A DNA stretch of 64,000 nucleotides, from contig NZ_CP091804.1 in the NCBI RefSeq assembly GCF_022024275.1, positions 558,001 through 622,000 of the forward strand, read 5' to 3'. Positions 2,866-7,056 of the stretch are shown here, one piece after another. Every line of letters starts with the position of its first letter. The stretch's first letter is position 1. The notes below the pieces were generated by a model that was given only the letters and a program-made list of their open reading frames with translations, made no database searches and was not told the origin of the DNA. Made by a program: the position numbers and the translations under genes. This stretch comes from Sphingopyxis sp. BSN-002 (GTDB lineage Bacteria; Pseudomonadota; Alphaproteobacteria; Sphingomonadales; Sphingomonadaceae).

Positions 2866-3438
2866 TCAGTCCATATGCTTCAGGCCGACGCGCAGATAAT
2901 CCCAGCCCGTGATCAGCGTCAGCACCGCCGCGCCCCACAGCGAGATCAACCCGACGGTCTTGATCCACGCAAACTCGGGCAGCGCGCCAGCCAGGATCAG
3001 CGCGCCGAACGCCACCAGCTGGAAGGTCGTCTTCCACTTCGCGAGCTGCGTCACCGGCATCGACACCTGCAAGGTCGCGAGGAATTCGCGCAGCCCCGAC
3101 ACGATGATCTCGCGCAGCAGGATCATCAACGCCGCGATGACGTGATAGCCGTTGATATCGCGCGTGAAGACCAGCAGCAGGATCACCGCCGCGATCATGA
3201 TCTTGTCGGCGATCGGATCGAGGAAAGCGCCCAGCCGCGAGACGATCCCGCGCGAGCGTGCAACATAGCCGTCAAAATAGTCGGTAATGCCCATCAGGCA
3301 GTAGAGACCGAACGCCAGTGCATAATCGATCGGCTTCGGCTGCAACGACCCCTCGGCCACACCCGGCCACAACAGGAAAAGCAGGATGGGAACCGCCAGG
3401 ATGCGCGAGAGCGTCAATATGTTGGGAAGGCTCAGCAT
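2866..3438 (-). CDS. pgsA: CDP-diacylglycerol--glycerol-3-phosphate 3-phosphatidyltransferase
   Basis: A 190-residue integral membrane protein with the CDP-alcohol phosphotransferase motif D-Y-F-D-G-Y-V-A-R, then G-A-F-L-D-P-I-A-D-K, that is D-x2-D-G-x2-A-R-x8-G-x3-D-x3-D. Several hydrophobic segments follow. PgsA makes phosphatidylglycerophosphate, the precursor of phosphatidylglycerol and cardiolipin, in the inner membrane. I place the start at ATG 3438 (M-L-S-L-P-N-I-L-T), the usual family N-terminus; a TTG at 3477 would add 13 residues without a better ribosome binding site. It leads the pgsA-moaD-moaE run. Confidence 0.9.
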   Translation of the reverse strand: MLSLPNILTLSRILAVPILLFLLWPGVAEGSLQPKPIDYALAFGLYCLMGITDYFDGYVARSRGIVSRLGAFLDPIADKIMIAAVILLLVFTRDINGYHVIAALMILLREIIVSGLREFLATLQVSMPVTQLAKWKTTFQLVAFGALILAGALPEFAWIKTVGLISLWGAAVLTLITGWDYLRVGLKHMD

Positions 3439-3585
3439 GGTCCCTGTCGACGTGTCCGTTCTAGCTTTGCGGCCCAATTGGGCTTTGACCCCGCCTGCCC
3501 TAACCGATAAGCCCCCCGTGCGACAACAGGATTGCCTGAGGGGGTTGGCGTTGTCGCTATTTCGGGCTGTAAAAGTGGATTTTCA

Positions 3586-4881
3586 ATGACAGGCTCCTTT
3601 GCGCTGCTGAATCAACGCAGGTTCCTTCCGCTTTTCGTCACGCAGCTGCTCGGCGCCTTCAACGACAATCTCTTCAAGAATGCGATGGTGCTGTTCGTCG
3701 TCTACGGCGTTTTCAACGACGAGGCGTCGGAAACGCTGTTCAGCGCGGTCGCAACCGCAGTCTTCATCCTCCCCTTCTTCCTTCTTTCTGCGCTAGCCGG
3801 CCAGCTCGCCGATACGCGCGACAAGGCGCGGATCATCCGCATCGTCAAATTCTGCGAGATTCTGATCATGTTCGTCGGCGGCGCAGGACTCGTCCTCGCG
3901 TGGATGGGCTGGGCGGTTCACATTCTCGCGATTCCGCTGATGATGCTCGCACTGTTCGCGATGGGCATCCACTCGACCTTCTTCGGTCCGATCAAATATG
4001 CGATCCTGCCGCAGCATCTCGAAAACGACGAGGTGCTCGCGGGCACCGGTCTCGTCGAGGCGGGCACCTATATCGCGATCCTCGCGGGCACGATTCTCGC
4101 CGGCGTGATAGAGGTCGAATGGGCCGCGCTCGGCGTCGTCCTCGTCGCCGCGCTCGGCTACTGGACCGGACGCAAGGTGCCGCCGGCTCCGCCGCAACAC
4201 GAAGAAACCGGCATCGACTGGCATATCATCCGCTCGTCGGTCGCGCTCGTCCGCGGCACGATGCATATTCCCCGCCTCTATCTCGCGATCCTGTCGATCA
4301 GCTTCTTCTGGACGATCGGCGCGGTGCTGTTCATCCAGTTCCCGCCACTGGCGAAGAACATCCTGCACGCCGACAAGAGCGTAGCGAGCCTGTTCCTCGC
4401 GGTCTTCTCGATCGGCATCGCGATCGGCTCGGTCGCGGTCAACCAGCTGCTGAAGGGCAAGGTTTCCGCACGCTACAGCCCGGCCAGCGTCATCGTGATG
4501 GCGCTCTTCGTACTCGCATTTTATTTCGTATGCCGCAGCTGGGGCGCGGAGCCTGCGGGCGCGCTCTACGACATCAAGGGCTTCTTAGCACACGAACGCG
4601 TCGTCCCGCTGCTGCTCAGCCTGCTCGGCATCGCGATCAGCGGCGGCATGTTCGTCGTGCCGCTCTATGCCTTCCTGACAACCACCGTCCCGAAGGACCA
4701 GACCGCACGCACCGTCGCGGCAAACAACATCGTGAATTCGGGCGCGATGGTCGCGGGTTCGCTGCTCGCGATCGGGCTCGGCTTCGCCGGCGTCGGAACG
4801 GTCGATCAGCTGCTGATGAGCGCCGTGATGTGCCTCATCTCGGCCTGGCTCGCGATGAAGCTGCACCGGGCTTGCGATTAA
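3586..4881 (+). CDS. MFS transporter of the LplT (lysophospholipid) type
   Basis: A 431-residue transporter with about twelve hydrophobic segments. The N-terminus L-G-A-F-N-D-N-L-F-K-N-A is the hallmark of the LplT branch of the major facilitator superfamily, which flips lysophospholipids across the inner membrane for re-acylation. In many proteobacteria the partner is an acyltransferase/acyl-ACP synthetase (Aas), fused or adjacent; none is present here. The start is ATG 3586 (M-T-G-S-F-A-L-L-N), the point where family similarity begins. It is divergent from pgsA, another phospholipid gene. The substrate is inferred only. Confidence 0.75.
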   Translation: MTGSFALLNQRRFLPLFVTQLLGAFNDNLFKNAMVLFVVYGVFNDEASETLFSAVATAVFILPFFLLSALAGQLADTRDKARIIRIVKFCEILIMFVGGAGLVLAWMGWAVHILAIPLMMLALFAMGIHSTFFGPIKYAILPQHLENDEVLAGTGLVEAGTYIAILAGTILAGVIEVEWAALGVVLVAALGYWTGRKVPPAPPQHEETGIDWHIIRSSVALVRGTMHIPRLYLAILSISFFWTIGAVLFIQFPPLAKNILHADKSVASLFLAVFSIGIAIGSVAVNQLLKGKVSARYSPASVIVMALFVLAFYFVCRSWGAEPAGALYDIKGFLAHERVVPLLLSLLGIAISGGMFVVPLYAFLTTTVPKDQTARTVAANNIVNSGAMVAGSLLAIGLGFAGVGTVDQLLMSAVMCLISAWLAMKLHRACD

Positions 4882-4907: not shown

Positions 4908-5096
4908 TCAGGATACGACCGGCTCGTCGTTCGATCGACCGGATCGTCCGTGTAGAAGAGCCTGCTGAATAGCCAATTTGATCTGGACGCGCAGATAGTC
5001 CGCGCGATGTACGTCAGGAACTGACAGCCCCGTTGTCACGATCTTCTCGACCGTGTTTTCTTCCCACTCCGAATAAGTCCAATGATCGGCGCTCAT
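4908..5096 (-). CDS. Small hypothetical protein (62 aa)
   Basis: A 62-residue acidic-to-neutral protein starting M-S-A-D-H-W-T-Y, with no signal peptide, membrane segment or known motif. An AGGGAG sequence about 12 bases upstream may serve as ribosome binding site. It lies downstream of, and on the same strand as, a small membrane protein (5148-5375), so the two may share a transcript. Residue composition looks like a real protein, but support is modest. Confidence 0.5.
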   Translation of the reverse strand: MSADHWTYSEWEENTVEKIVTTGLSVPDVHRADYLRVQIKLAIQQALLHGRSGRSNDEPVVS

Positions 5097-5147: not shown

Positions 5148-5375
5148 TCAGATCAGGAACATCATCGTCGCGACGAAGAAGATCGCGAAGCTTTCCAGAA
5201 ACAGCCGCATGTCGCTGCCGCGCGCCAGAAGCGGCGGAGCAACGCGCTCGGCGTGCAGCATTACCCGCAATTCCGCCTGCCAGTCGTCGGGCATGTTGAG
5301 CTGCGCGATCCTCAGTTGCCGTGCGCTATGCGCCCGCAGCCGTTCGCGAATGTCGATCTGGTCTTCTGCGTCCAT
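5148..5375 (-). CDS. Small C-terminally anchored membrane protein (75 aa)
   Basis: A 75-residue protein with a charged N-terminal two-thirds (M-D-A-E-D-Q-I-D-I-R-E-R) and a single hydrophobic segment at the extreme C-terminus (L-F-L-E-S-F-A-I-F-F-V-A-T-M-M-F-L-I), the topology of a tail-anchored protein. I recognise no family. Its promoter region carries a TTAA-N7-TTAAC site, the CtrA consensus, 20-53 bases before the start, and a GANTC methylation site. This suggests a role tied to the cell cycle or cell pole, as an inference from the site only. Confidence 0.6.
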   Translation of the reverse strand: MDAEDQIDIRERLRAHSARQLRIAQLNMPDDWQAELRVMLHAERVAPPLLARGSDMRLFLESFAIFFVATMMFLI

Positions 5376-5394
5376 GTCCGGACGCTACGCCCCG

Positions 5395-5428
5395 GTTAAC
5401 GAGTCGATAAGGTTAAAAAATCGTTAAC
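5395..5428. promoter_or_regulatory. CtrA-type binding site with adjacent GANTC
   Basis: Bases 5413-5428 read TTAA-N7-TTAAC exactly, the full CtrA consensus of alphaproteobacteria. The opposite strand of the same stretch also reads TTAA-N7-TTAAC. A further GTTAAC lies at 5395-5400, and GTTAACGA (5395-5402) and TCGTTAAC (5421-5428) form a perfect 8-base inverted repeat. A GAGTC (GANTC, the CcrM methylation target) occupies 5401-5405. The block sits just upstream of the leftward small membrane protein gene. Confidence 0.6.
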
Positions 5429-5468
5429 GCCGCAGCGTACCGCAACGGGACGCCCGCCCGGCGCTTTC

Positions 5469-6185
5469 TTAACCGCGCGGCATCGGCCGGATACGCACCG
5501 TCTTGCGATCCGGGGCGCCCTTCTGGAAAACCTTGCAGGCCTGCGGACGCATACGCGGCCCCAGACAATAGCTGACCTCGGTCAGCCAGCCATCGCGGTC
5601 CGTCGACACGCCGATCATCGTTTCGCGGATGCCCGGATTGATCGCGGCAAAAGCGCGGCGAATACTTCCCGTGGTCTGCGGCTGCGCGCCGAGCTTTGCC
5701 ATGTCGGGAAACCGGACGGTGCGGAACAACATTTCGGCGGCGCGGAAGTAGGCAGCCGGGTGCGGGCTCATGCACGTTCCATGCTTCGCCCATTCGTGCT
5801 GGAGCAACTGCGCCGAAGGCGTCATGCACAGATGCTTCTTCAGCACCGCCTGCGGCACGATCTTCGCCGGACGGCACCATTGCGGATAGTCGCGCGTATC
5901 GGCCTCGGGCCACAGCCCGTGCAGCACCCAGCCGAAGCGGCCATTCTCGCCCGAACATTGGAAGCGGTCGCGCGCATCCTTCGGATTGCGCACCCTCGCG
6001 CAATGCTGCGGAGACCAGCTCATGCTCAGCTTGTACCCGGTGACCGGCGGCCTTCGCACGGGCTCGTCGCGCGGGTTCTGTTCGAGCCGCGGAACGGGGA
6101 TGCGACCGGGAACCGAGCAGGAAAGCGCTTGTGCCTGCACCGCGACCGGCATCAGCGCCAGGGCGACGGCGCTAGGCCAGCGCAA
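5469..6185 (-). CDS. Secreted ribonuclease T2 family protein
   Basis: A 238-residue protein with both catalytic blocks of RNase T2: CAS I W-V-L-H-G-L-W-P-E (His89) and CAS II H-E-W-A-K-H-G-T-C (His130, Glu131, His135). Several cysteines fit the family disulfides. T2 enzymes cleave single-stranded RNA via 2',3'-cyclic phosphates, here in the periplasm or outside, since residues 1-20 form a signal peptide ending A-Q-A. The start is TTG at 6185, needed to include that signal; it overlaps the end of nadC by 14 bases. A role in phosphate or nucleotide scavenging is likely but not shown. Confidence 0.88.
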   Translation of the reverse strand: MRWPSAVALALMPVAVQAQALSCSVPGRIPVPRLEQNPRDEPVRRPPVTGYKLSMSWSPQHCARVRNPKDARDRFQCSGENGRFGWVLHGLWPEADTRDYPQWCRPAKIVPQAVLKKHLCMTPSAQLLQHEWAKHGTCMSPHPAAYFRAAEMLFRTVRFPDMAKLGAQPQTTGSIRRAFAAINPGIRETMIGVSTDRDGWLTEVSYCLGPRMRPQACKVFQKGAPDRKTVRIRPMPRG

Positions 6186-7020
6186 AATCGAGCCCGATGT
6201 CCGCCGCGGGCGCCGACTGGGTCAGCCGCCCGACCGATACATAGGTCACGCCGGTCGCGCCGATGTCATGGATCGTGTCGAGCCTGACGCCGCCTGACGC
6301 TTCGGTCGGCACCTTCCCGCCAACCAGCGCAACACATGCCCGCAGTTCGTCGAGGCCCATATTATCCAGAAGCAGATGCGTCGCCCCCGCCTTCAGCGCG
6401 GGTTCGACCTGCGCGACGCGGTCGACCTCGACGATAATCCGCTCGATCCCGGCGTCGACCGCGCGGCGCACCGCTTCCTCGACCGATCCGGCGACCGCGA
6501 CATGATTGTCCTTGATCATCGCCGCGTCCCACAGTCCCATGCGGTGGTTCGTCGCGCCGCCCATTCGCGTCGCGTATTTCTCGAGCACCCGCAGACCCGG
6601 GATCGTCTTGCGCGTGTCGAGCAAGGTCGCGCCCGTTCCCGCGAGCGCATCGACATATTGCCGCGTCATCGTTGCAATTCCAGACAGATGCTGCACCGTG
6701 TTCAGCGCCGACCGCTCGGCGGTCAGCATCGCGCGCGCGTTGCCCGACAGCCGCATCAGGTCGCTGCCCGCCGCAACCGCCTCGCCCTCTTCGACGAGGA
6801 TCTCGATCTCCATCGCCGGGTCCAGCGCGCGAAAGAACATCTCGGCGATCGGCAGTCCGGCAACGGTGATCGCGTCGCGGCTGTCCATTACTCCCGAAAA
6901 GCGGGCGCCCGCAGGGATCGTCGCCATCGAGGTAATATCGCCGCCCGAGTCCATATCCTCGGCCAAAGTGCTGCGGACGAAGGCGCCAAGGTCGAAACCG
7001 GAAAGGGAGAAGTCGCTCAT
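6172..7020 (-). CDS. nadC: Quinolinate phosphoribosyltransferase (nicotinate-nucleotide pyrophosphorylase)
   Basis: A 282-residue enzyme with clear NadC landmarks: E-D-M-D-S-G-G-D-I-T near the N-terminus, T-R-K-T-I-P-G-L-R, G-G-A-T-N-H-R-M-G-L-W-D-A-A-M-I-K-D-N-H and the late E-A-S-G-G-V. It converts quinolinate and PRPP to nicotinate mononucleotide in de novo NAD synthesis. nadA and nadB are not in the window. I place the start at ATG 7020 (M-S-D-F-S-L-S-G), which gives the usual length; a TTG at 7050 would add ten residues. The end overlaps the RNase T2 gene. Confidence 0.93.
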   Translation of the reverse strand: MSDFSLSGFDLGAFVRSTLAEDMDSGGDITSMATIPAGARFSGVMDSRDAITVAGLPIAEMFFRALDPAMEIEILVEEGEAVAAGSDLMRLSGNARAMLTAERSALNTVQHLSGIATMTRQYVDALAGTGATLLDTRKTIPGLRVLEKYATRMGGATNHRMGLWDAAMIKDNHVAVAGSVEEAVRRAVDAGIERIIVEVDRVAQVEPALKAGATHLLLDNMGLDELRACVALVGGKVPTEASGGVRLDTIHDIGATGVTYVSVGRLTQSAPAADIGLDFALA

Positions 7021-7056
7021 GGCGAATGCGATAGACGGCCCCTCATGCAAATCAAC

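Follow-up and report, generated by a model that had tools for sequence, protein, structure and literature searches.

A conserved, unnamed protein of 75 residues with a C-terminal membrane helix is, by comparison of sequences, very likely controlled by CtrA, a bacterial master regulator, in Sphingopyxis sp. BSN-002. The 34 bases upstream of its gene would be the core of a CtrA-controlled promoter serving a small bitopic inner-membrane protein, a reading to which we give a probability of about 0.8. CtrA control had been proposed in a preliminary description, and comparison has strengthened the proposal: box 1 of Table 1 is present at 33 of 33 loci of the genus, the same word stands in 30 of 30 same-genus ctrA promoters, and of 48 other genera compared, 40 have boxes of the type before the related gene. 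It is on these three grounds that control is considered very likely. "The window" is used below for the whole stretch of 64,000 nucleotides that was analysed, which spans bases 558001-622000 of a 3.73-Mb contig, and positions refer to it (Table 1).

Table 1. Positions and support of the gene, its promoter elements and its neighbours in the window
Feature	Position	Strand	Support
Gene for 75-residue C-terminally anchored protein	5148..5375	-	Open reading frame; relatives family-wide; hydropathy; AlphaFold helix
Putative -10 hexamer, TAGCGT	5382..5387	-	TA...T at fixed distance in 32/33 loci
Box 2, CtrA-type, TTAT-CGACTCG-TTAAC, 1 mismatch to TTAA-N7-TTAA	5395..5410	-	32/33 same-genus loci
GANTC (GAGTC/GACTC), in box 2 spacer	5401..5405		Kept in 19/33 same-genus loci
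Box 1, CtrA-type, TTAA-CGATTTT-TTAACC, palindromic	5412..5428	-	TTAA-N7-TTAA in 33/33 same-genus loci
Second palindrome, GTCCC-N5-GGGAC-like, here GTCCCGTTGCGGTAC	5437..5451	-	Conserved in the genus and outside
RNase T2 family gene, upstream neighbour	5469..6185	-	PF00445; matched in 48/48 named same-genus loci
nadC, upstream neighbour	6172..7050	-	TIGR00078; also beside remote homologues in L074, L075, L083
MFS gene, convergent neighbour	3532..4881	+	PF07690; marks the locus in several genera; 8/10 weak-match loci

The element and its conservation within the genus

A double CtrA site had been claimed on the ground that TTAA-N7-TTAAC is matched on both strands. The matches are real, at 5412-5427 on the minus and 5413-5428 on the plus strand, and none arose in 100 shuffles of the window, but they are one palindrome, GTTAA-N7-TTAAC, read from both sides, which rules out two independent CtrA sites on opposite strands. 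Read along the strand of the gene, the 34 bases nevertheless carry a full box and, in tandem after it, a box with one mismatch (boxes 1 and 2 of Table 1). The GANTC also reported within these bases is indeed there, as GAGTC, in the spacer of box 2. TTAA-N7-TTAA corresponds to the CtrA full site as given in two published accounts (PMC6180460, PMC9437464).

Across 33 same-genus loci 20 of the 35 columns of the element are invariant, whereas none of the 50 columns upstream of it and none of the 17 downstream is; when one exception is allowed (32 of 33), 4 of the 20 third positions in the gene's final 20 codons are conserved. Box 1 is kept as TTAA-N7-TTAA at all 33 loci and as TTAA-N7-TTAAC at 32, and box 2 as TTA[TC]-N7-TTAA at 32. 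With the 48 named loci of the genus as the sample, the strict box is found in 46, the exceptions being L121, with TTAAG, and L131, where CTAA replaces the first TTAA. The orthologue at L131 (Sphingopyxis sp. PET50, a complete genome) also appears frameshifted, at about 2980-3220, through either sequencing error or decay.

In 33 of the 36 genomes of the genus an extended form of the element, TTAAC-N4-TTTTAACCTTA, is found at 0-1 mismatch, once per genome and only before the 75-residue protein's gene. Within the genus and at that stringency it is thus neither a multi-copy element nor a site that occurs apart from the gene; at 2 mismatches extra matches occur in G006, G008, G025 and G028. In 24 genomes of other families it has matches at 1-2 mismatches, including five at 1 mismatch, but roughly no more often than the reversed control does. 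The three genomes of the genus without it at 0-1 mismatch are G008, G014 and G016, which are also the three that gave no match to the protein. G008 gave no match to the MFS gene either (its assembly is 88% complete), while G014 and G016 have, adjoining the MFS gene, a diverged small open reading frame with a C-terminal hydrophobic stretch and a full TTAA-N7-TTAAC box directly ahead of its ATG. Strongly diverged versions of the protein are seen in smaller-genome members of the genus, at L222, L223 and L083 (G014, G016 and G316).

The protein and its relatives

The product had been described as an unknown tail-anchored protein of 75 residues, and this description stands: the open reading frame is conserved, its predicted hydrophobic helix is C-terminal, and neither it nor its aligned relatives match any Pfam or NCBIfam model, save for single weak matches above E 0.01. 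Hydropathy is at its maximum over residues 57-75, with no hydrophobic helix at the N-terminus, and AlphaFold, in a model of modest confidence (mean pLDDT 73, pTM 0.31), places helices at 9-26, 32-43 and 55-74. A single hydrophobic helix at the extreme C-terminus is of the tail-anchored type, and a membrane protein is predicted.

Of 36 genomes of the genus, 33 contain a match to the protein that is free of internal stops; 24 genomes from the order's other families contain none. A first profile (A1) matched 15 of 298 same-family genomes; its weak matches adjoin the same MFS gene at 8 of 10 loci, and L079 and L080, which are among the ten, were not counted as homologues. Profiles A2 and A3, built from the syntenic members, each match 174 of the 298 genomes, in 60 (A2) and 59 (A3) of 96 genera, at E <= 0.01, a threshold that may let in a few false weak matches and that misses diverged members. 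A draw of 289 genomes from the class gave four matches within the family and, at E ~0.004, two partial matches beyond it. Most of 29 aligned members from other genera begin with M[KR]R.LVLT.E.ARHPFR...LP, followed by a linker that varies and, at the C-terminus, a hydrophobic stretch; the conserved stretch is thus of an HPFR type in most of these, and of an IDIR...APxDW type in Sphingopyxis. No report of the gene family as a CtrA target came up in searches of open-access papers. A 62-residue open reading frame at 4908-5096 (-), just downstream, is probably not a gene, and as an operon partner it is rejected, having no tblastn match at E 1e-3 in the 48 named same-genus loci.

The same word before ctrA

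The strict motif TTAA-N7-TTAAC is not enriched over the 3.73-Mb genome, where it has five matches at only three places compared with 14 matches for the reversed control pattern; the interest is therefore in the location of these few copies. One place is upstream of the 75-residue protein's gene, another is about 125 bp before ctrA, and the last is upstream of an open reading frame of 533 codons. The ctrA product carries receiver and Trans_reg_C domains and is 80% identical to Caulobacter CtrA. The site before ctrA reads GTTAAATCAAAATTAACCTT and has two GANTC sites just upstream.

ctrA scores above the cut-off in 37 of 40 same-genus genomes, and the promoter counts cover the 30 loci returned out of those 37. 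All 30 have TTAA-N7-TTAACCTT, 29 of them as GTTAA-N7-TTAACCTT, with the box starting 138-161 bp ahead of the ATG. At a distance of 29 nt past the start of TTAACC there follows TTAATG in 29 promoters and TTAACG in one. At least one GANTC is present within 300 bp upstream of ctrA in each of the 30, invariably beyond the box as seen from the gene. The upstream regions of ctrA and of the 75-residue protein's gene thus have in common both the word TTAA-N7-TTAACCTT and the 29-nt step from it to a hexamer. They differ in the position of GANTC, which is upstream of the box at ctrA (30/30) and inside the spacer of box 2 at the other gene, and in the putative leader, long at ctrA and very short at the other gene.

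The third strict site is at 2086-2101 of locus L039 (2663585-2663600 of its own genome). The 533-residue product encoded behind it, which by eye we take to be an M23-type peptidase, is a possible candidate for an envelope or division target.

Promoters of the related gene in other genera

Sixty-five promoters from 48 genera were compared, out of 174 matched genomes: 31 from the best-scoring loci that the searches returned and 34 fetched, one for each genus not yet covered. Of 33 loci from the searches, L141 (frame unclear close to the end of a contig) and L136 (of the same genus) were excluded, and the start codon was, in general, taken by choice to be the ATG nearest to the profile match.

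Within 100 bp, 57 of the 65 promoters, in 40 of the 48 genera, have a TTAA-N7-TTAA box at up to one mismatch, as compared with 17 of 1333 control windows taken elsewhere in these loci. Since such windows consist largely of coding DNA, shuffles make the fairer comparison, and mononucleotide shuffles of the 65 gave a mean of 1.7 promoters with a box and a maximum of 6. Perfect boxes number 5 in 65 promoters against 0 in 1333 windows, and 61 of the 65 have a TTAAC half-site within the final 60 bp, compared with 45 of 2339 windows. The step between half-sites is most often 11 bases, equivalent to N7 (29 of 52 pairs). Eight of the promoters, from eight genera, have no box at up to one mismatch.

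Core promoter geometry and a proposed mechanism

A scan with the sigma-70 consensus found no promoter at the site of the 75-residue protein's gene. The hexamer TAGCGT, a putative -10, is 12 nt ahead of the ATG and 29 nt from box 1's TTAACC; from this spacing the transcript would have a short leader or none. The two Sphingopyxis boxes start at about -52 and -36. In Caulobacter a full site near -35 activates, and half-sites over the -10 repress (PMC6180460). The 29-nt step from box 1 to the putative -10, shared with the ctrA promoter, makes activation the likelier sign.

It is envisaged that CtrA binds the two tandem TTAA-N7-TTAA-type boxes and thereby sets transcription of the gene. With box 1 abutting the presumed -35, its occupancy would probably activate, and box 2, which overlaps that -35 and the spacer, may tune or shut the promoter. 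The N-terminus of the product would be cytosolic and the C-terminal helix in the inner membrane, where the conserved cytosolic stretch would most likely dock a partner. There is a likeness to CtrA full-site promoters in Caulobacter crescentus and other Alphaproteobacteria in half-site, spacing and position near the presumed -35, and, as with Caulobacter-type CtrA systems, the Sphingopyxis genome also encodes ctrA and ccrM-type genes. Unlike the full-site promoters of that type, however, this one has two tandem boxes and, as its presumed target, an unnamed membrane protein.

Other readings of the promoter

That CtrA mainly represses the gene, through a box over the core promoter, is a possibility we consider rather unlikely. 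The best box starts at -24/-25 from the chosen ATG in 41 of the 65 other-genus promoters, where on a short-leader transcript it would cover the -10 and suggest repression, as the repressing half-sites of Caulobacter overlap the -10 (PMC6180460); box 2 of Sphingopyxis, too, overlaps the presumed -35 and spacer. Against this, a further box in Sphingopyxis stands where activation would be expected, in a geometry like that at ctrA, and TTAACC occurs at -75 to -36, mostly at -54/-53, in 19 of the 65 other promoters compared with 8 of 3133 control windows, each 45 bp long. As the -24/-25 placement is unlike that of Sphingopyxis, the sign is not transferable across genera, and activation may differ there or be wrong. 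The role envisaged for CcrM methylation fared less well than that for CtrA. A CcrM-type methylase of 379 residues is indeed encoded (PF01555 and PF18755, the RAMA domain), but the promoter GANTC is poorly conserved, being kept in just 19 of 33 promoters within the genus and found within 100 bp in only 6 of 65 outside it. In having GANTC inside the putative core promoter (19/33) the gene is like CcrM/GcrA-controlled promoters; it is unlike them in that the site is conserved neither within the genus nor within the family. That GANTC methylation by CcrM, with GcrA, should be the main timer and CtrA secondary is therefore improbable, even with a GANTC in the spacer of box 2, a methylase with a RAMA domain and the depletion of GANTC across the window, as box 1 is kept in 33/33 where GANTC is kept in 19/33. 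CcrM control of the gene is weakly supported by the sequence, and CcrM involvement would be at most a lineage detail. The depletion itself is strong, with 104 sites in the window and 365 expected from shuffles.

Slimmer still is the chance that another regulator reads the TTAAC repeats, or that they merely reflect AT-rich promoter DNA. What might favour another regulator is a further conserved palindrome upstream; what argues against either version is the N7 spacing, the word shared with ctrA and the excess over both shuffles and control windows. CenR as the reader is rejected, its motif, TGA-N8-TGA, being different (PMC9275681). The upstream palindrome, GTCCC-N5-GGGAC at up to one mismatch, is present in 26 of the 33 promoters of the genus and in 33 of the 65 from elsewhere, compared with 14 of 1133 control windows. 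At up to two mismatches its spacing is 5 in 28 of 28 same-genus and 50 of 54 other promoters, and it mostly begins 61-90 bp before the ATG. Because its arms are often not self-complementary, an operator for some further regulator seems likelier than an RNA hairpin. A link of this palindrome with SciP, suggested by the SciP motif, would be speculative.

Function and significance

The paper on CtrA of Sphingomonas melonis (Mol Microbiol 2015) reportedly names motility and biofilm in its title. Flagellin is present in 199 of the 298 family genomes; among those matched for the 75-residue protein 105 have flagellin and 69 lack it, and among the unmatched the corresponding numbers are 94 and 30 (odds ratio 0.49, uncorrected for kinship, in a table blurred by missed diverged members). 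The occurrence of the gene does not follow flagellin and so it is not a flagellar accessory; a motility gene is ruled out with 69 of 174 matched genomes lacking flagellin and 94 of 124 unmatched ones having it. That CtrA controls the gene as a growth-phase, surface or envelope output, and not as a cell-cycle or pole factor, is a tentative reading with a little under even odds. It draws on the same flagellin counts and on the published statement that in S. melonis ctrA loss leaves growth and viability unharmed (PMC8116508), and is tempered by an influence of CtrA on replication shown in the same species, which leaves a cell-cycle link possible (PMC8116508), and by neighbours, nadC, RNase T2 and MFS, that offer no functional hint. 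Also pertinent, from a study in S. granuli, are ctrA and ccrM transcripts that vary with growth phase and oxygen (PMC6472365). For the predicted protein, an output tied to growth phase or to the envelope would fit no worse than the cell-cycle or pole factor first suggested.

In Caulobacter, CtrA is essential and linked with the cell cycle, but in S. melonis it is reported as dispensable (PMC8116508), which raises the question of its core task in the Sphingomonadaceae. A more ambitious proposal, and on present evidence a doubtful one, is that the protein is the core, motility-independent output of CtrA across that family in the GTDB sense, fixed while the rest of the regulon was rewired. If so, it may feed back from the membrane on the phosphorelay or on envelope growth. 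An unnamed gene that has the box in 40 of the 48 other genera compared and whose occurrence does not track flagellin is a direct handle on the core task of CtrA in the family.
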